Shown piece after piece: positions 2,293-38,311 of a stretch of DNA of 38,311 nt. The number at the start of each line of letters is the position of its first letter. The stretch's first letter is position 1. A program made the translations under genes and the position numbers. Under the pieces are notes generated by a model. That model made no database searches, had not been told where the DNA came from, and saw nothing but the letters and a program-made list of their open reading frames with translations. The stretch comes from Chthoniobacter flavus (GTDB lineage Bacteria; Verrucomicrobiota; Verrucomicrobiia; Chthoniobacterales; Chthoniobacteraceae), in NCBI GenBank assembly GCA_945860355.1, contig CAMARB010000015.1:1-38311 (forward strand), given 5' to 3'.

Positions 2293-3753
2293 TTAAAACG
2301 AAGCGGAAATGTTCTGCTCCTCGAGCACGTTGTAGCGCCGCTTGATCCGGCTGCGGGCGGCCTCCACGGCGGCCCGCTCCAGAACCAGCGGCCGTCCAAC
2401 GCCCACAAATTTGAGGACGTAAAACTCCGTCTTTTCCTCGAACGCTTCGGCCAGATCCTTGAGGGCGTTGATTTTTTTGCCGTTCACCTCGTCCACAATA
2501 CCCTCCTTAAAATCGCCCAGATAGGTGTTGATCGGGTCGGGCAGGATCGAGCTGAGGATGATGACGCTGGGATGCGTTTTGTAGAGTTCCTTGGAAACGA
2601 ACGCGTCGAAAAAGTAGCCGATCCGCGGGTTGGCGAACTGATAGGCGCCGGTCAGGTTCCGGGAGAGGGGCTGGAAAAGCAGGCCGCCGAACAGGACGTA
2701 ATCGGGTTGTTGCTCGTAGGTGTTGGCTTGCAGGGTGTAGGGCCAGGCCCGGTCGAACTTCACGGTCAAACTCTGCTCTTTGCCCTCGCGCAGCACCGAG
2801 AACCGGACCGAATCCCCCAGAAACTTGCGCTCGGCCACCTCGGCCATCAGCACCCGTTCCCCGTCGAGCTCCACCATGCCGTCGCTGAACACCGGATGCC
2901 CGTCGATGGCGAGAATCACGTCACCCTCCTTCAAGACCCCCGCGCACACGCCCGCCGATTGCACGCTGCTGACCACCACCCCGCGCCCGTCGTCCGGCAG
3001 ATTCAAGGCGCGCCGGTGGGCCGGGTTGAGCAGGTTAAACGTGTTCAACGAGAGATCCATGTAACGGTCATAACGACCGTCGGCGATGTCCTGCAGGAAC
3101 CGCTGAATGACGGGGGTCGGAATCATGTAACCCACGTTCTGAGCCACGTCGCCGCTGTATCCCTGGAAGGCGACCCCCACCACCTTGGAGTCCTGCAAAA
3201 CCGGGCCGCCGCTGTTGCCCGGATTGATGGCCGCGTCGATTTGAATGCAGAGATGCGAGTCGAGCAGCGAGTGGGAATAGGTCCGGAAATCGACCCGGGA
3301 AACAATGCCGCGGGTGACCGAGAGCCGGTCGCCGCCGATCGGGTAACCGAACACCGAAACCGTCGACTCAATCTCGGGCAGCGCGCCCAGGGGCAGCGGT
3401 TTGGTGTCCTTGAAGAAAGAGGGGTCATCCACCTTCAGAAGCGCCAGATCACAGTCGTGGGCGATGTGCTCCACAGTGGCGATGTACTTCTTGGGATCGT
3501 TCTCTTTTTCCACCGTCAAAAAACGGGCGTTGCTCACCACATGCGCGTTGGTGAGCAAACGTTCCTTTTCCACCACCCAACCCGTGCCCGAGCCGCCGCC
3601 GGTCTGCCCCGGCAACCACGGGATCCGGTAATTGGGGACCTGGGCGGTGTTGGTGATCCGCGCCAAACTCTTGCGCACCTCGTTGGGCTGGGCCCATGCC
3701 GATGCCGTCGTCAAAGCCAGAGCAATCAGAAGCTGCGGGACACGCATGATCAT
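2293..3753 (-). CDS. HtrA/Deg9-like serine protease with PDZ domain
   Basis: 'LLTNAHVV', 'DCDLALLKVDD' and 'NPGNSGGPV' catalytic motifs, PDZ-like region, 'YVLFGGLLFQPLS' C-terminal motif. Start placed at MIMRVPQLLIALALTTASAWAQ (signal peptide) rather than the longer ORF start at 3915. Confidence 0.9.
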   Translation of the reverse strand: MIMRVPQLLIALALTTASAWAQPNEVRKSLARITNTAQVPNYRIPWLPGQTGGGSGTGWVVEKERLLTNAHVVSNARFLTVEKENDPKKYIATVEHIAHDCDLALLKVDDPSFFKDTKPLPLGALPEIESTVSVFGYPIGGDRLSVTRGIVSRVDFRTYSHSLLDSHLCIQIDAAINPGNSGGPVLQDSKVVGVAFQGYSGDVAQNVGYMIPTPVIQRFLQDIADGRYDRYMDLSLNTFNLLNPAHRRALNLPDDGRGVVVSSVQSAGVCAGVLKEGDVILAIDGHPVFSDGMVELDGERVLMAEVAERKFLGDSVRFSVLREGKEQSLTVKFDRAWPYTLQANTYEQQPDYVLFGGLLFQPLSRNLTGAYQFANPRIGYFFDAFVSKELYKTHPSVIILSSILPDPINTYLGDFKEGIVDEVNGKKINALKDLAEAFEEKTEFYVLKFVGVGRPLVLERAAVEAARSRIKRRYNVLEEQNISASF

Positions 3754-3871
3754 AAGTCGCAGAAGATGGGGGCAAGTTTTGACCCTGTAAAATGGAATGT
3801 CAGAAGGGAATTGGGCGCCCGGGACGGCGCGAAAATGGTCGGGGTTCGCACGCGAAAAAAGGGCGCCGTTT

Positions 3872-5152
3872 TCAGCCCCGCGCCAATGCCTGGCGCACCT
3901 CGGTCGCCTCGGCAAACGCCTGCCGGATCACACCCGCCACCCGTTCAATCTCGCGGGGGCCAACGGCCGTGCCTGTGGGCAGGGCCAGGATCCGATCCGA
4001 AAGCCGCTCGGTGTTGGGCAGGTTCGCCCCGGCCTCCGGATAAAGGGTGCGGTAAGGTTCCATGCGATGGCATCCGGGGAAAAAATACCGCCGGGCCAGG
4101 ACGTTGTCCGCGTGCAGCACCCGCAGCAGCTCGTCGCGGGTCAGCGGGCACACCGTCGGATCCACCTCCATAACGACGTACTGGTAGTTGCCGCGCTCGG
4201 ATGGATCGTAGGGAATGAGGGTCAACCCGGGGATGCCCGCGAGCTGGGTGGCGTAGGCGGCGTGGTTGCGCCGGTTCATGGCGATGAACGAGTCGATGCT
4301 CTCCAGGCTGGTGATTCCCATGGCCGCGCACACCTCGGTCATCTTCGCGTTCATCCCGAGGTATTGGACCGTGTCGTAGCCCGTGAACCCGAAGTTGCGC
4401 ATGAGCCGCAGTTTCTGGGCGAGTTCATCGTTGTCCGTGACCACCGCCCCGCCCTCAAAGCTGTTGAGGAACTTGGTTGCGTGAAAACTAAAGACTTCAG
4501 CGTCCCCGAAATGCCCCACCAACGTGCCCTTGTGCGAACAACCGAAGGCGTGGCTGGCGTCAAAAAGCAGACGGAGCTTGTGGCGGCGCGCAATGTCCTC
4601 CAAGGCCGCCGTGTCGCACGTGCGCCCCCAGAGATGGACTCCGATGATGCCCGTGGTGCGGGGGCTGATGAGCCGCTCCACGGACTCCGGATTCAACGTG
4701 TGCGTCTCGGGATCCACGTCGCAAAACACGGGTTTGGTTTGCTGCCATTGCAGCGCGTGCGCGGTCGCCACGAAGGTGAAGGAGGGCAGGATGACCTCGC
4801 CCTGCAAATCCAGGCCCCGCATGGCGAGCATCAAGGCGGTCGTTCCGTTGCAGGTCACCAGGCAATGTTTGACCCCGATGTAATCCGAAATGCGTTTCTC
4901 AAACTCCCGCACATACGGCCCGTCGTTGGAGAGCCAACGCGTGTCGAGCATCTGGTCGATCCGCTGCTGCAGATCCGCCCGGTTGCCGATGTTGGGCCGC
5001 CCCACATGGAGCGGTTCGCGAAATGCGGGGAGCCCCCCCAGGATCGCCAGTTGGCGCGGCGCGCCGCCCAAGTCCGGCTCGGCTGGGATGGCCTCGACCA
5101 AATCCAATTCGGGCATTGGGTCCGGGAACTCCTTGATTTGAGGGATCGCCAT
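3872..5152 (-). CDS. DegT/DnrJ/EryC1/StrS family PLP-dependent sugar aminotransferase (VioA-like)
   Basis: Motifs 'RWLSNDGPYVREFE', 'CNGTTALMLA', 'LPSFTFVATAHAL', PLP-lysine segment 'SFHATKFLNSFEGGAVVTD', and 'ARRYFFPGCHRMEPYR'. Start placed at MAIPQIKEF. Confidence 0.9.
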   Translation of the reverse strand: MAIPQIKEFPDPMPELDLVEAIPAEPDLGGAPRQLAILGGLPAFREPLHVGRPNIGNRADLQQRIDQMLDTRWLSNDGPYVREFEKRISDYIGVKHCLVTCNGTTALMLAMRGLDLQGEVILPSFTFVATAHALQWQQTKPVFCDVDPETHTLNPESVERLISPRTTGIIGVHLWGRTCDTAALEDIARRHKLRLLFDASHAFGCSHKGTLVGHFGDAEVFSFHATKFLNSFEGGAVVTDNDELAQKLRLMRNFGFTGYDTVQYLGMNAKMTEVCAAMGITSLESIDSFIAMNRRNHAAYATQLAGIPGLTLIPYDPSERGNYQYVVMEVDPTVCPLTRDELLRVLHADNVLARRYFFPGCHRMEPYRTLYPEAGANLPNTERLSDRILALPTGTAVGPREIERVAGVIRQAFAEATEVRQALARG

Positions 5153-5165
5153 AAGAATAGGGGGG

Positions 5166-5984
5166 TTACTTGATTTGCCGCGCTGGAACACCAAAGACCG
5201 TGGCGCCTTCCGGCACATTCTGGATCACCACGCTGCCGGCGCCCACCGTCGCGCCCGCGCCCACGGTGATGTCCGGCAACACCACCGCGTGACTGCCGAT
5301 CTGCACCTCGTCGCCGATCACCGCGCGACCCAGGATACTGGCAAACGGCGCCACCTGCACAAACGAGCCCATCCGCACGTCGTGGGCGACACTCACGTGG
5401 CTGAGGATCGTCGAGAAATCGCCGATCCGGCTGTTGACGCCGACACCGGTGAACGCCTCGATGATGACGCCCTCTCCGAGGCAGACACTGGCAGCGAGGC
5501 TGGCCGAGGGTTGAACCAGGTTCACAAAACGGGCGCCGCGGCCGCGCAGCCGGTCGCAGACCTTTTTGCGCCCGGCCACATCCCCGATGGCGCAGATGAA
5601 CACCTCTTCGGGGCCGGGCGCATGGTCTGTCCCTCCCACAATCGGAGGCAATTCCGCAAAACCCTCCAGCGCATCGGGGATGTCGTTGAGAAACCCGCGG
5701 ACAACCCATTCCCGGCCCGAACCGCGCGCGGTTTGCGACATCCCGAAAATCTCGCGGCCGTAGCCACCCGCCCCGACGATGAGCAGCGACTTAGGCCCTG
5801 AAAACACCGGGCGCGGACCGGGATTGCTCCCGGGGTTGAAGGGGCTTCCGGCGGGCTTGTTTCCCAGAGCGCACCACGCCTCAAACTCCTGCCAAGCCCC
5901 CAACTCGTCGGAGGGCATGATGAACGTGGACCCGGATTCCTCCAATCGTTCCACGCCAAACTCCACGAGCCGAAACCCGATCAT
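5166..5984 (-). CDS. NeuD/PglD-like sugar O/N-acyltransferase (left-handed beta-helix)
   Basis: 'LLIVGAGGYGREI' N-terminal nucleotide/sugar-binding motif followed by hexapeptide repeats '...GEGVIIEAFTGVGVNSRIGDFSTILSHVSVAHDVRMGSFVQVAPFASILGRAVIGDEVQIGSHAVVLPDITVGAGATVGAGSVV..VPEGATVFGVPARQIK'. Start choice MIGFRLVEF (5984); the ORF can extend to 6107. Confidence 0.85.
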   Translation of the reverse strand: MIGFRLVEFGVERLEESGSTFIMPSDELGAWQEFEAWCALGNKPAGSPFNPGSNPGPRPVFSGPKSLLIVGAGGYGREIFGMSQTARGSGREWVVRGFLNDIPDALEGFAELPPIVGGTDHAPGPEEVFICAIGDVAGRKKVCDRLRGRGARFVNLVQPSASLAASVCLGEGVIIEAFTGVGVNSRIGDFSTILSHVSVAHDVRMGSFVQVAPFASILGRAVIGDEVQIGSHAVVLPDITVGAGATVGAGSVVIQNVPEGATVFGVPARQIK

Positions 5985-6133
5985 AACGCCCCCTCCCCTG
6001 CCAGGCGGCGGCGCACCCGATTCCCCGCCGACGCCCCGCCGCCTCCCGGACCAAGCGCCGACAATCCGGGGACGCACCGTGCCAAACACGATGCGGCTCT
6101 GGGACACCGGCAGGGGGAACAGGCAGGCGCGCG
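5981..6133 (-). CDS. Candidate small ORF (50 aa) overlapping the NeuD-like start by ATGA; may not be coding
   Basis: ATG at 6131-6133, stop TGA at 5981-5983 overlapping the ATG at 5982-5984; no recognisable domain. Confidence 0.15.
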   Translation of the reverse strand, partial: RAPACSPCRCPRAASCLARCVPGLSALGPGGGGASAGNRVRRRLAGEGAL

Positions 6134-6141
6134 CATAAAAC

Positions 6142-7188
6142 TTACACCTCGAGGATTTCCGGACAGACGAGGTTCTCCGTCGTCAGGACAGCGCTGGACC
6201 AGGCCAAACCCGGGCCGACCCCGCCCAGAAGCGAAATCCTGCGTCCGGCGCGGAGCTCGGAGCGTCCCCGGGCGAGCATGGCCAGCGGCAGGGTGCCCGA
6301 TCCGCTCAAGCCGTATTCGAAAACAGGGCCGCAGTATTTGTCTGAAGGAATCCCCAGCGCCCGGCACAAAGCCGTGTCACCCGCCATGCTCAACGGCTCA
6401 AAGTAGCCCCGGTCCAGGTCCGAGGAAGTAACGCCGGCGGCTTGGAGCACCCGGGAAACCGACCCGGGCAGTTCACGGAGGGCGGCCGCTTCCACGGCCT
6501 GGCAATCCAAACTGTAGCCGCTGGCCCGTTCGATCCCCTCCGGGGTGGAGAACATCTCCGGGTTGGGCGGGTTTCGGACGCCCCCCACGGGCATGTAAAG
6601 GGCCTCAAAAGCGGCGCCGTCGCCGCCGCTGTCAAAATGCAGGGCCGGGGCGTCCGCCTGGTATTCCAGCGCGCAAACGCTCCCGCCGTGTCCGTCAATC
6701 GTGGAAAACAACGTTTCGCCGGCCACACTCGAGACCGACTTGGACACCTCGCCGGTGAGCAGGAGCCCCCGCTTGAGGTGGCCGGCCCCGAGCATACTCG
6801 CCAGCACCTGGAGCCCGTGAAGAAAACCCAGGCTGCCCGACGGCAAATCAAACGCCACCGCCGTCTTCGGAATCCCGAGCCGGTCCTGGACGATAATCGC
6901 CGTGGCGGGGATGGGATAATCCGGCGTCAACGTGGTCATGATCACCACGTCGATTTGAGCCGGTTCCCAGCCCAAATCCGCGAGTAGGCGCCGCGAGGCG
7001 TCGACGCAGAAATCCGACTGGCACTGTTCCCATCGGGCCCTGCGCTGAAGGGCGCGCACGTTGCGGCGCCGGGCCGAGGCGAGCTGGGCGGCGCTCAGTT
7101 CGAGTTGTTCGAGCGGGATGTCCCGCAGGGGCGGCACGGCGGCAGCCAACCCGGCGATGCGGACATTGGGAATTGAAAGAGTGGGCAT
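6142..7188 (-). CDS. FabH/KASIII-like protein lacking the Cys-His-Asn catalytic residues
   Basis: Co-linear with the KASIII at 7922..8974 along the full length ('RRLLADLGWEPAQIDVVIMTTLTPDYPIPATAIIVQDRLGIPKTAVAFDLPSGSLGFLHGLQVLASML', C-terminal 'LVCPEILEV'). Active-site Cys, His and Asn replaced. Confidence 0.85.
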   Translation of the reverse strand: MPTLSIPNVRIAGLAAAVPPLRDIPLEQLELSAAQLASARRRNVRALQRRARWEQCQSDFCVDASRRLLADLGWEPAQIDVVIMTTLTPDYPIPATAIIVQDRLGIPKTAVAFDLPSGSLGFLHGLQVLASMLGAGHLKRGLLLTGEVSKSVSSVAGETLFSTIDGHGGSVCALEYQADAPALHFDSGGDGAAFEALYMPVGGVRNPPNPEMFSTPEGIERASGYSLDCQAVEAAALRELPGSVSRVLQAAGVTSSDLDRGYFEPLSMAGDTALCRALGIPSDKYCGPVFEYGLSGSGTLPLAMLARGRSELRAGRRISLLGGVGPGLAWSSAVLTTENLVCPEILEV

Positions 7189-7925
7189 TAGGTCAAACCT
7201 CCATCCATGATGAGATTGGTGCCGGTGATCCAGCGGCTGGCCGGGGACAGGTAGAACACCACCGTGCTGGCGACATCCTCGGGAAGCCCGTATCCCAGCG
7301 GATACCGGGCCTCGTCCGCCGCAACCACCTCGGCGCTGACTTGGTTGGCAAACCCGTCCACCACCTCCGTTTTCACCATGCCCGGCGAGATGCAGTTGGC
7401 GCGAATGGCGTTACCGGAGAGTTCATGGGCCAGGACCCGGGCGATGCCCACCAGCGCCGCTTTGGAGCCGGCGTAAATGGAGTGGCCGCGCGCCCCGATA
7501 AACGCGCCGAGCGACGCGATAAACACGATGGAACCGCCGTTTTTGAGCCGCCGGGTTTTGAAAAGCCGCTGGGTGAGGAAAAGCGGCGCTTCGACGTTGA
7601 TGGCATACACCTCCCGGTAGCGCTTCTCGTCGCTGAATTTGAAGGGGTGCAGCAAAGTCACCCCCGCGCAGTGGGCGATCCCGTCCAGGGGCGGCAGTTT
7701 CGCCACGAACTCGTCCCGGTTTTGCTCATGGACCAAGTCGGCGGGAACCGCCGAGTGATTCCCCGGGGCCAACTCCGCGAGCACGGCGCTGAGTTTCGCC
7801 TCGCTGCGTCCGGTGACGATCACCTCCGCCCCCATCTGCGAGGCGGTGATCGCCGTCTGGCGGCCGATGCCTCCCGTGGCGCCGGTGACGAGGATGGTTT
7901 TTCCGACCAAATGAAACGGGGTCAT
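7188..7925 (-). CDS. SDR family oxidoreductase (FabG-like 3-oxoacyl-ACP reductase type)
   Basis: 'TILVTGATGGIGRQTA' Rossmann motif; 'IASLGAF..SIYAGSKAAL' Ser-Tyr-Lys; 'INVEAP'; C-terminal 'SPASRWITGTNLIMDGGLT'. Confidence 0.9.
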   Translation of the reverse strand: MTPFHLVGKTILVTGATGGIGRQTAITASQMGAEVIVTGRSEAKLSAVLAELAPGNHSAVPADLVHEQNRDEFVAKLPPLDGIAHCAGVTLLHPFKFSDEKRYREVYAINVEAPLFLTQRLFKTRRLKNGGSIVFIASLGAFIGARGHSIYAGSKAALVGIARVLAHELSGNAIRANCISPGMVKTEVVDGFANQVSAEVVAADEARYPLGYGLPEDVASTVVFYLSPASRWITGTNLIMDGGLT

Positions 7926-8978: not shown

Positions 8979-9224
8979 TCAGGCGGCCTTGAGCGCTTTT
9001 TTGGCGACGACCAATTTGTACACGTCTTCCAACGTGTCGCATTGCTTGAGCTCCATGCCCGGGACCTGCACTTCGTATTCGCAATCGATCATTGCGAGCA
9101 GGCAGAGCAGCGCCAGGGAATCCCACTGCGGAATGCGGTGGTACTGGGTTTGCGGGGTCAAAGACTCGGGTTCGATGCCTTCCACGGCGTTTTCGAAATG
9201 GCGGACGAATTGTTCAACTTCCAT
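8979..9224 (-). CDS. Acyl carrier protein
   Basis: 81 aa acidic protein with 'QWDSLALLCLLAMID' phosphopantetheine-Ser (DSL) motif; sits immediately before the KASIII gene. Confidence 0.88.
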   Translation of the reverse strand: MEVEQFVRHFENAVEGIEPESLTPQTQYHRIPQWDSLALLCLLAMIDCEYEVQVPGMELKQCDTLEDVYKLVVAKKALKAA

Positions 9225-9263: not shown

Positions 9264-10439
9264 TTAATCAAAATTCATGCTCGCGGCGTACGCCTCGTGG
9301 AACGCGCAGATCCGCTGCTCTTCATCGCTGAGCACGCCGGCGCCGTGGGCAAACCCCACCGAACGCTGGACCTGCTCACAAATCGCGGCGTCCTCGGCAA
9401 AGATCGCCTGCACAAACTCGGCAGCCGAACGGTAGAACTGCTTTTTGAGCGCCAGCTCCATCTTGCTGAGTTCCCCAAGGCCGCTTGTCGCAAAGAGGTA
9501 ACTCGTTAAAACCGTGGTCTTTTCGTCAATCGGCAGGATCCGCTGCAAGCTGAATGATTCGCCCCGGGTCGATGCGAGGACAAAGTTGGGGTAGAGATAA
9601 AAATGCCGATACCCCTCGATGCGTTGGGGCCGCCGCGCAAGGAATTTGTAGGCGCGATCCATGCGCGCGGACACCTCGGCATTCAACGGCGAAAAAACAG
9701 CCGAATTCCGGCCCGCAAACCGGAAGAAACTCGCCTTCTGCCCCCCCGGCTCGGCGTCCGACTCCGGGGCGCCCTGGGCAGACTCCGGGGCCGGCCCCGC
9801 CAAACCCGACATACCCAGTTTCCGGATCGTGTCCGGATGCACGCAATCGACGTGGTAACCCTCCAGCGTGTTCTCCACCACCAGCTTCCAGTTCGCGTTC
9901 ACGCGGTGTTCGGTGTGCTCGACCACCTCGCCAAAGGCGCTCGCCAACTGCGAAACGGGTGCCCAGAAATCGCCCCACTGGCGCTCAAAATCGTCTTCCG
10001 CAAGGGTCTCGCCGGGGTTCTCCCGCTTGATGAAAACCAGGGGCCCGAGGAACCGCACATGCCAGCGCACCAGCCGGTAGTCGCAGAGCGTCTGCGGGGT
10101 GATCTCCGAGATGAGCGGCTTGCGGGGGATCGCGTAGGGCAGCCCCTCGGCGTTGTAGATCCAGCCGTGATAGGGGCATTTGAGCTGCCGGTTCCCGCAC
10201 GGCTCCGTCTGCAACCGGGCGAACCGGTGGGAACAGACGTTGTTAAATGCGCGGATTTCGCCGCCGAAATTCTGGAGCACCACCGAGACGTTCCCCACGT
10301 CGATGCAACGAAAGTCCTGGTCCTTCGAAAGCTCATGAAGGCTGCAGGCGAAAATCCATTCCCGCTCGAAAATACGCTTCAACTCGAGCGCGAGCACGCC
10401 GGGGTCAACGTATTGGGAGGGAGCGATCAGGGGTTTCAT
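9264..10439 (-). CDS. Rieske [2Fe-2S] non-heme iron ring-hydroxylating-type oxygenase, alpha subunit
   Basis: 'CSHRFARL...CGNRQLKCPYHGWIYN' Rieske CxH...CxxH; non-heme iron segment 'VENTLEGYHVDCVHPDTI'. Confidence 0.92.
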   Translation of the reverse strand: MKPLIAPSQYVDPGVLALELKRIFEREWIFACSLHELSKDQDFRCIDVGNVSVVLQNFGGEIRAFNNVCSHRFARLQTEPCGNRQLKCPYHGWIYNAEGLPYAIPRKPLISEITPQTLCDYRLVRWHVRFLGPLVFIKRENPGETLAEDDFERQWGDFWAPVSQLASAFGEVVEHTEHRVNANWKLVVENTLEGYHVDCVHPDTIRKLGMSGLAGPAPESAQGAPESDAEPGGQKASFFRFAGRNSAVFSPLNAEVSARMDRAYKFLARRPQRIEGYRHFYLYPNFVLASTRGESFSLQRILPIDEKTTVLTSYLFATSGLGELSKMELALKKQFYRSAAEFVQAIFAEDAAICEQVQRSVGFAHGAGVLSDEEQRICAFHEAYAASMNFD

Positions 10440-11647
10440 CAGTCGGCAAATGCGTAGAAGACGGAGTCGTAGCGGGTGTTGCTGTGATGGCGCAGCCCAA
10501 AACGGTATCCGCGGTCGAGGCTCTGCAAATAACGGGGCAAATCAATGAGATCCGACGGCCGATGCGAGGTGCAGGCCGCAACCTTCGGGCGCTCAGCGGC
10601 GAGATGCCGACTGGCCCCGTGCAAGATACCGAGGCTTTGCCCCGCCATATCCAGCCGCAGAAAAGAGACCTCCTCCTCCAGCGATTCATCCAGACAGACC
10701 ACCGCCGCGGACTGCGCATCGGTCGGTTCGCCCAACCCGTCCAAGTCCGGCAGCGCCGACGGGATGCAGACTCCCACGCCCCGCCACGGGTTCACATCCA
10801 GCGTCCCCGTGCAGCGCCCCACCACCTCCCGCCGCAGGTGGATTCTCTGCGAGTAGTCGTAGAAAGACTGCCGGTTAAGCCATTTCTCCAGCCGCTCAAA
10901 TTCAGCCGGATCGGGTTCAAACGCGTGAATCCTCCCGAACCGCCCTTTCGCGGCCCGGATGAAACTGCGGACGTGATCGCCGCTACCCGCGCCGCAATCC
11001 ACGTAAACCTCCTCGGAGCCTACCCCGAGAACGCCGGAGCGAAAATACGCGGCATCCGCGGGTCGGTTCAGGGCGAGAAGATATTCCCGGTCCGCTTCGA
11101 GGTGGGAGAGAAGGAACGCGTAAAAGGTCTCCACGGAGAGCGGATCCACCCAGAGTTTTTCCAGCGCGAGGCAATCCCCCAGGCGGGAGGTGATGAACGG
11201 CAGCCAATCGGCGAGTTGAATATCGGTCTCCAGGCGCAAGGCGCGGACCATCTGGAGGTAGTTGAGCATCTTCAGCCCCTTTTCCGATGCGAGCACCTCA
11301 AAGTGGCTGTATCCGGCGTCCGACTGGCCGGTGTTCACGCACACCACTTCCGGACGGTCCTGCACGAGCTCCACCAACCCACGGGTGTCCAGGCAGGGAT
11401 ACCCCATGATGTGGTTGCCCGCGTGCGCATCGTCCACAACCGCCAAAATCTCCAAGTCCCCCAGCTGCCGCGCGTAGTGGAGAAACGCGGACGCCCAGTA
11501 ACCGGTGCCGCAACACACGACGGGCACCTCGCGCACACGGCCCAGGTAATCCTCGTCCGCCCAAGCAGGGAGCCCGAACCCGGGATTGCCGCAAGCCTGC
11601 TCGACGGCTGTCTCCAGGCGGTGTTTGAGATGAGCGATTCGGTTCAT
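10439..11647 (-). CDS. FkbM family methyltransferase with N-terminal Rossmann-like domain
   Basis: C-terminal FkbM region 'EEVYVDCGAGSGDHVRSFIRAAKGRFGRIHAFEPDPAEFERL' ... 'FLRLDMAG'; N-terminal 'VPVVCCGTGYWASAFLHYARQLGDLEILAVVDD'. Stop overlaps the Rieske start (TGATG). Confidence 0.82.
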   Translation of the reverse strand: MNRIAHLKHRLETAVEQACGNPGFGLPAWADEDYLGRVREVPVVCCGTGYWASAFLHYARQLGDLEILAVVDDAHAGNHIMGYPCLDTRGLVELVQDRPEVVCVNTGQSDAGYSHFEVLASEKGLKMLNYLQMVRALRLETDIQLADWLPFITSRLGDCLALEKLWVDPLSVETFYAFLLSHLEADREYLLALNRPADAAYFRSGVLGVGSEEVYVDCGAGSGDHVRSFIRAAKGRFGRIHAFEPDPAEFERLEKWLNRQSFYDYSQRIHLRREVVGRCTGTLDVNPWRGVGVCIPSALPDLDGLGEPTDAQSAAVVCLDESLEEEVSFLRLDMAGQSLGILHGASRHLAAERPKVAACTSHRPSDLIDLPRYLQSLDRGYRFGLRHHSNTRYDSVFYAFAD

Positions 11648-11655
11648 GGCTGTGT

Positions 11656-13779
11656 TCAGTTTTCAACCGCGAGGGCCGGCTCCGGAAGGGCGAGCTCCGG
11701 CAGACGCGCATTCGCGGCGGGCGCCTGCCGGGCGCACCAACGCTGCCACATGCCGCGGAACGCTTTTTCCAAACACCGGGTGAACGCGCTGCCGTCGCCC
11801 AGCACGGGATCCAGCCGCCCGCGAAGGCTCGCGCGGCACCGGCCCAAAAACTCCAGATCCGCGGCCGCAGCCACGGCTTTTTCCACATACTCCTCCGGGC
11901 TGCGCGCGATCAACTCGGGCAACCCCAAAGACGTCAGCAAGACGGCCCCGGAACGCTCGGCGCTCCCCGTCCCCTGCAGCGTGACAAACGGAACCCCCAT
12001 CCAGGCCGCCAGGATGTTGGTGGTGCCGCCCGTGTAGGGAAAGGTGTCGAGCAGGAAATCCACGCGGTGATGCAGCTTGAGGTAATCGGCCACCGGTTGG
12101 CGTTCGATGAGCTCGATACGCTCCGGAGCGATCCCGTGCGACTCCAGAACGCTCCGGACCGGGTTCCCCGCGCGCCCGACGACCAGCAGTTTTGAGCCGG
12201 GCACGGCGGCCAGCACCCGGGCCCAGGTCGCGAGCACGTCCGGGCCCACTTTCGCCAGGTTATTAAAAGAGGCGAACGTCACGAACCCGTTCTCCGCGGC
12301 CGGCAACCCGTTGACCGGCGGGCAATCCGCGGGGGGCCGGAACGTCGAAGCGCCCAGCTCCAGCCGCACGAGTTCCTCGGTGTTCCACCGCTCGGAGACG
12401 CCCGGGGGATCCATCGCCTCGTCGGTGATGCGGTAGTCCATCGCCCGCAGACCCGTGGTCTGCATGTAACCGATCATGCCCACCTGCACCGGCGCCGGTT
12501 TGCGGGCGAACACCATGAGCCGGTTGCGCGAGGTGTGCCCGGAGAGATCCACCAGGATGTCGATTGCGTCCTCTCGGATGAGCGCGGCCAACTCGTCATC
12601 GCTCATTCCCAGCACGTTGTGCCAGCGCTCCACCAACCCCTCCAACCGCTGGCTCATGGCATCGCGCTCGGCTTGGTTGGCGTACACAAAAAACTCACAG
12701 TCCTCCATCCGATGCGCCGCGAAAACGGGCTCCATGAAATAGGCCACCGGGTGCTCCCGCAGATCGCCCGAAACAAAACCCACACGCAGGGGGCGCAGCG
12801 GGTCCGGCAGGACCGTGTGCGGCCGCCAGGAAGCGCGGAGCGGCTCGGCGAACCGCTCCCCGAACCGGCAATGCTCCGCAAACAACCGCTCGCGGTCGGT
12901 CCCGGGCAGGTAATTCAGACCAAAGAGCAGATTGCTAAACGCGTGCCGGTAATCGGGTTTGAGTTCCAGCGCGCGACGGAAAGACGCCACCGCCTCCTGC
13001 GTCCGCCCCAGCTCGTTGAGCGCCGCACCCAGGTTGTTGTGAAGCAGGGCGGACCCGGGCTGGATCCGAAGCGCCTTGCTGTAACAGGTCAAGGAGTCCG
13101 AAAACCGCCCCAGATCCTTGAGCACATTGCCGAGGTTGTTGAGGGCCGTGACCGATTCCGGGTTCAACTCCAAGGCCCGGAGATAGGCGCCAATCGCGTC
13201 CCCGCCCCGGGACTGCGCATGGAGCACCACGCCCAGATTCGTGTATGTGACGTCGCTCGGCTCGTGGAGCTTCAGCGATTCCCGGTAACAGTCCTCCGCC
13301 TCCAGGTAGCGCCCGAGTTCCTTGAGAGCGATCCCCAGGTTGTTGTGAAAAACATACGACCCCGGGTTCAGCGCCAAGGCCCGCCGGTAACATTGCGCCG
13401 CCTCGGAATACCGCCCCTGTTCCTTCAACGCGTTGCCCAAATTGGAGTGCGCAAAATCCGCCTTCGGGTCCGCTTCCAGCGCCAGCTGATAAAACTCGAT
13501 GGCCTCCTCCAAACGCCCCTGCTCCTTGAGCACACCCGCCAGGTTGCTGATCGCCGCCGCGCTGCTTTCGTCCACCCGCAGGGATTCCGTGATGAATTCC
13601 TGAGCGGCATCCAAGTTCCCCAACCGTTGTTCCACCAGCCCGAGCAAATGCAGCGCCTCGGCGTGACGCGGGTTTTGCGCGATCAGCTGGCGGCAAATTT
13701 TGCCCGCTTCCGCGAGGTTCCCCGCCTCGTGATAGCGGTGAGCCTGCTCCATTTGGGAGGAAGAGGGGCGATTTTGCAT
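11656..13779 (-). CDS. TPR repeat + GT41 (O-GlcNAc transferase/SPINDLY-like) glycosyltransferase
   Basis: About 8 consecutive TPRs ('AxxNLGNALKEQGRYSEAAQCYRRALALNPGS...'), then 'PLRVGFVSGDLREHPVAYFMEPV', 'DILVDLSGHTSRNRLMVFARKPAPVQVGMIGYMQTTGLRAMDYRITDEAMDPP', 'FASFNNLAKVGPDVLATWARVLAAVPGSKLLV', 'DTFPYTGGTTNILAAWMGVPFVTLQG'. Start taken at MQNRPSSSQ. Confidence 0.93.
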   Translation of the reverse strand: MQNRPSSSQMEQAHRYHEAGNLAEAGKICRQLIAQNPRHAEALHLLGLVEQRLGNLDAAQEFITESLRVDESSAAAISNLAGVLKEQGRLEEAIEFYQLALEADPKADFAHSNLGNALKEQGRYSEAAQCYRRALALNPGSYVFHNNLGIALKELGRYLEAEDCYRESLKLHEPSDVTYTNLGVVLHAQSRGGDAIGAYLRALELNPESVTALNNLGNVLKDLGRFSDSLTCYSKALRIQPGSALLHNNLGAALNELGRTQEAVASFRRALELKPDYRHAFSNLLFGLNYLPGTDRERLFAEHCRFGERFAEPLRASWRPHTVLPDPLRPLRVGFVSGDLREHPVAYFMEPVFAAHRMEDCEFFVYANQAERDAMSQRLEGLVERWHNVLGMSDDELAALIREDAIDILVDLSGHTSRNRLMVFARKPAPVQVGMIGYMQTTGLRAMDYRITDEAMDPPGVSERWNTEELVRLELGASTFRPPADCPPVNGLPAAENGFVTFASFNNLAKVGPDVLATWARVLAAVPGSKLLVVGRAGNPVRSVLESHGIAPERIELIERQPVADYLKLHHRVDFLLDTFPYTGGTTNILAAWMGVPFVTLQGTGSAERSGAVLLTSLGLPELIARSPEEYVEKAVAAAADLEFLGRCRASLRGRLDPVLGDGSAFTRCLEKAFRGMWQRWCARQAPAANARLPELALPEPALAVEN

Positions 13780-13782
13780 GCG

Positions 13783-13798
13783 CGTGCTACGTAGCACG
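13783..13798. promoter_or_regulatory. Perfect 16-bp palindrome CGTGCTACGTAGCACG upstream of the OGT-like gene (candidate operator)
   Basis: Direct reading; the two 8-bp halves are exact reverse complements, 3 bp from the chosen ATG. Confidence 0.4.
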
Positions 13799-17805: not shown

Positions 17806-17830
17806 TTGCATGCAGCGACCCCAACTCCCC

Positions 17831-18532
17831 ATGAAAACCCCCAATCAAAAAGCATTCACCCTGATCGAACTGCTCGTGGTGATCTCCATCATCGCGATCC
17901 TGGCCGGCATCGCCCTTCCGGCGTTCACCGCAGTGCAGACCAAAGGCGCCCAGACCAAGGCCCTTTCCAACGCCAAACAGATCGGCATGGCCTGCAAACT
18001 GTTCGCCGGCGACTACAACGGAAACTTCCCGCTCTACACCGATGTCGCCAACAAAACCCTGGCCACAAACGGAAGCGATTCCAACGCAGTGCTTCAAACC
18101 TTGATGCCCGATTACCTCCCGGACAAATCGATCTTCGCGATCCCCAAATCGGCTTTCTGCAGGAACGCAGGCACGGCGAGCACGGGTGCCAACGCATTGC
18201 TCCTCAACGCCCTCGAAAACGAGTGGGCTTATGTTCTGGGCCTCACCGACACGTCCAATTCACAGTGGCCTTTGATCGCTAGCGGTTTCGCCGCTCCCGC
18301 CGCAGGGACCTATGTCGATGACGAGACGGCACAGGGCGGCATTTGGAGAAACAAGGCAGCCATCGTGATCCGTTGCGATATCAGCGGTAAAGTGGAGAAG
18401 CTCGTGGGGACCACCACCAAGGTCGTGCCTCGGAGTGACAGCGACCCGACGAATGCTTTCGTTTATACGGCAGCCTCCGGCAACGTCCCCGCTTGGCTGG
18501 GTGCGGGAACGTCCGTCCTCAATCCGAAGTGA
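17831..18532 (+). CDS. Prepilin-type N-terminal cleavage/methylation domain protein (pseudopilin-like)
   Basis: 'KAFTLIELLVVISIIAILAGIALPAF' class III signal peptide; 'LSNAKQIGMACKLFAGDYNGNFP'. Confidence 0.92.
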   Translation: MKTPNQKAFTLIELLVVISIIAILAGIALPAFTAVQTKGAQTKALSNAKQIGMACKLFAGDYNGNFPLYTDVANKTLATNGSDSNAVLQTLMPDYLPDKSIFAIPKSAFCRNAGTASTGANALLLNALENEWAYVLGLTDTSNSQWPLIASGFAAPAAGTYVDDETAQGGIWRNKAAIVIRCDISGKVEKLVGTTTKVVPRSDSDPTNAFVYTAASGNVPAWLGAGTSVLNPK

Positions 18533-38174: not shown

Positions 38175-38311
38175 GATCCGTCAGATCCGTCAGATCCGCC
38201 CGATCCGCCCGATCCGCCCGATCCGCCCGATCCGCCCGATCCGCCCGATCCGCCCGATCCGCCCGATCCGCCCGATCCGCCCGATCCGCCCGATCCGCCC
38301 GATCCGCCCGA
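38175..38311. repeat. 9-bp tandem array: (GATCCGTCA)x2 then (GATCCGCCC)x13, continuing off the window
   Basis: Direct reading; 9-bp periodicity is perfect from 38193 to 38309 and the last two bases (GA) continue it. Confidence 0.98.

Follow-up and report, generated by a model that had tools for sequence, protein, structure and literature searches.

Loss of the catalytic triad in one of two KASIII paralogues of a Chthoniobacter flavus sugar cassette, and their probable pairing

In a viosamine-type cassette on a 38,311-nucleotide stretch of Chthoniobacter flavus DNA (the window), a KASIII paralogue that lacks the whole Cys-His-Asn catalytic triad is encoded in one operon with an intact KASIII. 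The dead protein, P0002 (6142..7188, minus strand, 348 aa), carries Ser119, Glu264 and Leu294 at the positions occupied by Cys119, His266 and Asn296 in the intact one, P0003 (7922..8974, minus strand, 350 aa). From the sequences it seems rather probable that P0002 is a non-catalytic subunit paired with P0003 in a FabH-shaped, PqsBC-like heterodimer of independent origin. An earlier note on this DNA had proposed such a non-catalytic partner, and the proposal is partly supported: it is the best reading of the overlapping KAS-SDR-KAS' genes, the full-length frame, the predicted KASIII fold, the GC3, the sister placement of the two proteins, the pattern of losses and a retained loop. Against pairing, an intact KASIII alone suffices in relatives that have this cassette.

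The P0002 frame (7188-6142 on the minus strand) has no internal stop; the plus strand of 6142-7188 contains internal stops. The earlier note had the coordinates right but placed the gene next to the intact KASIII. An SDR / 3-oxoacyl-ACP reductase-like gene (7188..7925, minus strand; YxxxK present) lies between them, so that the P0003 gene is one gene upstream of the P0002 gene. The SDR gene shares 4 bases (ATGA) with the live KASIII gene and 1 base (TAATG) with the dead one, and a GGAGG is found nine bases upstream of the P0002 start. The GC3 of the P0002 gene is 0.80, like that of the neighbouring genes. P0002 and P0003 align from end to end with 36% identity (E 1e-70), and the alignment bears out the common C-terminal tail, CPE(I/L)(L/I)EV, that had been pointed out before.

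The nucleophile of P0003 (Cys119 in VNLGCSGY) is replaced in P0002 by Ser119 (LPSGSLGF), which takes precisely the place of the nucleophile, next to a Gly that is retained. His266 (FHQANL) becomes Glu264 (FEPLSM), and Asn296 (FGNTSS) becomes Leu294 (YGLSGS). These replacements, C to S, H to E and N to L in the earlier note, are exact in pairwise alignment, and an alignment of 33 sequences and the comparison with E. coli FabH give the same result. Of the KASIII homologues in the fetched loci, all with a readable triad (about 130) keep Cys, His and Asn, the few with a partial triad being cut by the locus end; judged by these homologues, the loss in P0002 is beyond chance or family variation.

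The loss of the active site reaches well past the triad and is wider than had been described. Comparison with E. coli FabH and 31 family members shows that Gln245, Ala246, Asn247, Phe304, Phe157, Gly38 and residue 81 (FabH numbering) are missing from P0002 too. P0002 has no HQAN (pantetheine) motif, no pocket Phe residues and no CoA-loop Gly, and residues of the CoA/ACP entrance are changed as well. With the residues that we take to form the E. coli FabH active site, P0002 keeps 3 and P0003 keeps 16 of the 17 cis active-site columns with at least 90% conservation in the wider clade; for the 43 such columns elsewhere the numbers are 32 and 38. The loss in P0002 is concentrated in the cis active site (Fisher test, p 9e-5, a nominal value since the residue sets were picked after the alignment was seen). 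A Ser exactly at the nucleophile position, beside a kept Gly, might be taken as a sign that the old pocket has acquired a new chemistry, either through Ser119 as the nucleophile or as a decarboxylase or acyltransferase. This is very improbable: P0002 has lost the base His and the Asn, together with the HQAN motif and the pocket Phe residues, whereas the known decarboxylating KSQ-type variants retain their His residues.

The AlphaFold monomer of P0002 has a confident core (mean pLDDT 82, pTM 0.85); for P0003 the values are pLDDT 92.9 and pTM 0.92. By alignment, the CoA loop and the flap fall within weakly ordered parts of the P0002 model, at about 21-50, 151-163 and 200-225. The PDB entry that best matches the model is a KASIII, 4efi (TM 0.87). 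In a Pfam scan at E 0.001 the sole match of P0002 was to PF08541 (ACP_syn_III_C; 33.8 bits, cutoff 26.6), and PF08545, the active-site half of KASIII, was without a match. The domain and the model together place P0002 within the KASIII fold. The strand-loop-helix elements around all three sites coincide in the P0002 and P0003 models, and on this match catalytic residues elsewhere in P0002 were rejected; the earlier note had regarded a catalytic Cys or His placed elsewhere as decisive against its reading. Its statement that the rest of the fold is kept agrees with the predicted KASIII fold.

The best-kept part of P0002 is a loop-helix, FabH 83-98. Among windows of 15 conserved columns it is retained at 15 of 15 positions in P0002 versus 9 of 15 in P0003. 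The permutation p for this retention is 0.001 with a threshold of 80% and 0.015 with one of 90%, values that account for picking the best window anywhere among all 15-conserved-column windows; the pattern DYP[IF]PATA, which lies inside FabH 83-98, served to recruit many of the sequences in the comparison, and part of the conservation there is built in by this choice. In the pattern-free subset of six sequences the same window is still the best (p 0.04 at 80%, 0.38 at 90%), and a scan of P0002 minus P0003 retention gave p 0.07-0.75. At the position of FabH residue 87, P0002 has Ile93, the common residue of the clade, and P0003 has Phe93. This residue sets acyl length: the E. coli enzyme, with Phe, prefers acetyl, and the M. 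tuberculosis enzyme, with Thr, prefers long chains (PMC3734052). The corresponding residue of PqsD, contributed by the second monomer, lines the channel or pocket (PMC3734052). The retention of this putative trans loop in P0002 is suggestive. A stretch that would reach the partner has been kept despite the lost active site, which argues that P0002 and P0003 probably work as a pair.

In a tree of 110 rows P0002 and P0003 are sisters (98/82). The end branch of P0002 (1.85) is the longest of the tree, three times longer than that of P0003 (0.57), and for this reason its placement is less sure than the support implies. The dead copy has been found in one genome only. Among 213 genomes of its order no orthologue of P0002 was detected at E 1e-30, and no match to the dead copy above 41% identity was detected in 57 relatives, in 388 genomes of the phylum, 40 of the family and 213 of the order, in 399 genomes of the order of a betaproteobacterial relative, or in scans of genome contigs, viral contigs and plasmids. 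The first genome-contig scan, with P0002 alone, gave nothing; the second used a pair of short peptides that included DYP[IF]PATA. No dead KASIII homologue occurred among the matches read out, which covered the weaker matches in part. Two other loci, G025 (L024:7156-10246) and G107 (L035:1009-4018), have the order ACP-KASIII-SDR-KASIII like the window. The second KASIII keeps its triad in G025, and the G107 locus ends before His and Asn. Both of these second KASIII proteins lie in a distant clade, and P0002 was rejected on that ground as a degenerate form of their second KASIII.

The occurrence in one genome and the very long branch (1.85 vs 0.57) could also be those of a functionless, redundant duplicate on its way to being lost, which is still readable either because decay set in recently or because translational coupling holds the frame open; the poorly ordered predicted loops (21-50, 151-163 and about 200-225) and the fact that other cassettes do without a dead copy point the same way. 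Such decay, the main rival reading, is nevertheless unlikely. Despite the long branch no stop or frameshift interrupts the 348 codons, the GC3 of 0.80 is that of the neighbours, the predicted core fold is confident and the tail is kept, and the gene overlaps with the one before it. In addition, the losses cluster in the cis active site instead of spreading over the conserved columns.

The cassette is transcribed on the minus strand, beginning with a TPR protein with a GT41 (O-GlcNAc-transferase-like) domain (11656..13797), an FkbM-type methyltransferase (10439..11647), a Rieske-type oxygenase (9264..10439) and an acyl carrier protein (8979..9224). These are followed by the intact KASIII, the SDR, the dead KASIII, a VioB/NeuD/PglD-type sugar N-acyltransferase (5166..5984; TIGR03570, 168.6 bits, cutoff 160.8) and a VioA/DesI-type DegT aminotransferase (3872..5218) whose closest NCBIfam model, DesI, is below its cutoff. 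The start of the acyltransferase gene is uncertain, a longer frame beginning at 6107. The motifs of the partners look intact (DSL attachment motif of the ACP, YAGSK of the SDR, the Rieske cluster motif, SFHATK of the aminotransferase). A short frame of about 48 codons, 5981-6127 on the minus strand, occurs between the dead KASIII and VioB-like genes and ends in an ATGA overlap with a VioB-like ATG near 5984.

VioA-like aminotransferase, ACP, KASIII, reductase and VioB-like acyltransferase occur together, as in a viosamine-type set; this sugar N-acylation setting goes beyond the earlier note. The viosamine island of Pseudomonas syringae (with VioS), which makes an N-(3-hydroxybutanoyl)-modified viosamine for flagellin, has an aminotransferase, an ACP, a KASIII, a 3-oxoacyl-ACP reductase and a VioB-like acyltransferase (PMC3927599). 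One KASIII gene is reported there, whereas a second, dead one is present here, and the window adds Rieske oxygenase, FkbM and TPR/GT41 genes. Cassettes of Xanthomonas, Massilia and Oxalicibacterium (VioA-ACP-KASIII-SDR-(SDR)-VioB-Rieske-FkbM) are nearly identical to the present one in gene content, and their KASIII proteins, all of them intact, have 42-45% identity to P0003. Many of these cassettes have a second SDR in the slot that the dead KASIII occupies in the window. The set is also found in Methylobacillus and others, with one or two SDRs and sometimes TPR/GT41. From this viosamine-type cassette, shared with Xanthomonas, Massilia and relatives, the product would likely be a 3-hydroxyacyl-ACP that acylates a 4-amino-sugar. 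The same genome has a dTDP-glucose 4,6-dehydratase (RmlB) over its family cutoff and seven flagellin places, which is consistent with an N-(3-hydroxyacyl)-4-amino-4,6-dideoxy sugar on flagellin. The probable product of the operon is an unusual, acyl-decorated sugar that would coat flagella; we infer the identity of the sugar and the flagellin target from the likeness to the P. syringae island together with RmlB and the flagellin places.

The position of the P0002 gene, between those of the SDR and the acyltransferase and in the second-SDR slot of many related cassettes, raises another alternative. P0002 might form its own dimer apart from P0003, with its fold kept and its active site lost, and serve as a non-catalytic docking protein or scaffold for the ACP, the SDR or the VioB-like acyltransferase. 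We regard this as quite unlikely: a scaffold would need neither the full-length fold of a P0003 sister nor the trans loop, and the residues of the CoA/ACP entrance have changed too.

For the pairing of P0002 with P0003, the PqsB precedent cited in the earlier note is a fair functional parallel. PqsB, of the PqsBC enzyme of Pseudomonas aeruginosa, likewise retains none of the triad residues and has PqsC as its partner (PMC4807248). Like PqsB, P0002 is a KASIII-like protein with its triad wholly lost, encoded in the same operon as a KASIII partner that keeps Cys and His (PMC4807248). The two systems differ in that PqsC is without the Asn, whereas P0003 keeps the full triad, and in that PqsBC belongs to quinolone signalling and the present pair to sugar acylation. 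Among 60 PDB relatives of P0002 listed up to E 10, PqsC and PqsD are present and PqsB is absent. A homology to PqsB beyond general KASIII kinship was rejected, as the best PDB match is 4efi and P0002 groups with P0003. PqsBC was the only dead-subunit KASIII pair found in the literature searched, which took in a minority of subscription journals.

The other precedent that had been invoked is a weaker parallel. In type II PKS a dead condensing subunit, KS-beta or chain length factor, is paired with a live one and shapes product length. These are KAS I/II-type proteins, whereas P0002 has no KAS I/II-type domain and matches only the KASIII C-terminal Pfam domain, ACP_syn_III_C (Pfam, E 0.001).

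If P0002 and P0003 do form a heterodimer, P0003 would condense, with the acyl group first on Cys119 and the malonyl group next, borne by the carrier protein of the cluster itself. The SDR would reduce the 3-oxoacyl-ACP, the VioA/DesI-like aminotransferase would make the 4-amino-4,6-dideoxy sugar, and the VioB-like enzyme would transfer the 3-hydroxyacyl group onto the amino group of the sugar. P0002 would take one half of the KASIII dimer and act in trans: its loop TPDYPIPATAII may reach the acyl pocket of P0003 and offer Ile at the acyl-length position, where a P0003 homodimer would offer Phe. What we infer here is the dimer, the contact made in trans and the acyl group.

FabH-type enzymes are usually homodimers, and PqsBC has been described as unique in being a heterodimer (PMC4807248). 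Another KASIII heterodimer in which one subunit is dead, evolved independently, in a single lineage and outside quinolone signalling, with complementary losses in its two halves, has in our estimate a little under an even chance of being what is seen here. The same tentative estimate applies to the form that those losses would take, namely that P0003 retains the catalytic centre and P0002 the loop for the partner's pocket. If true, a second case from another pathway and another starting enzyme would show how a homodimer becomes a heterodimer with a dead half. Phe93 in P0003 versus Ile93 in P0002 would then predict that acyl preference shifts in the presence of the dead subunit.

Elsewhere in the window, adjacent DegP-like proteins with 25% identity (685-2280 and 2293-3915, both on the minus strand) make up a second dead/live pair. 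The protein of 2293-3915 keeps TNAHVV and GNSGGP; that of 685-2280 has TGELVA, is without the GNSGG stretch and a trypsin match, and keeps its PDZ domains. Outside the cassette, a prepilin-type protein (FTLIELLVVISIIAILAGIALPAF) is encoded at 17810-18532 on the plus strand beside a glycogen branching enzyme-like gene. About fifteen copies of the 9-base unit GATCCGCCC occupy 38175-38311 and reach the end of the window.
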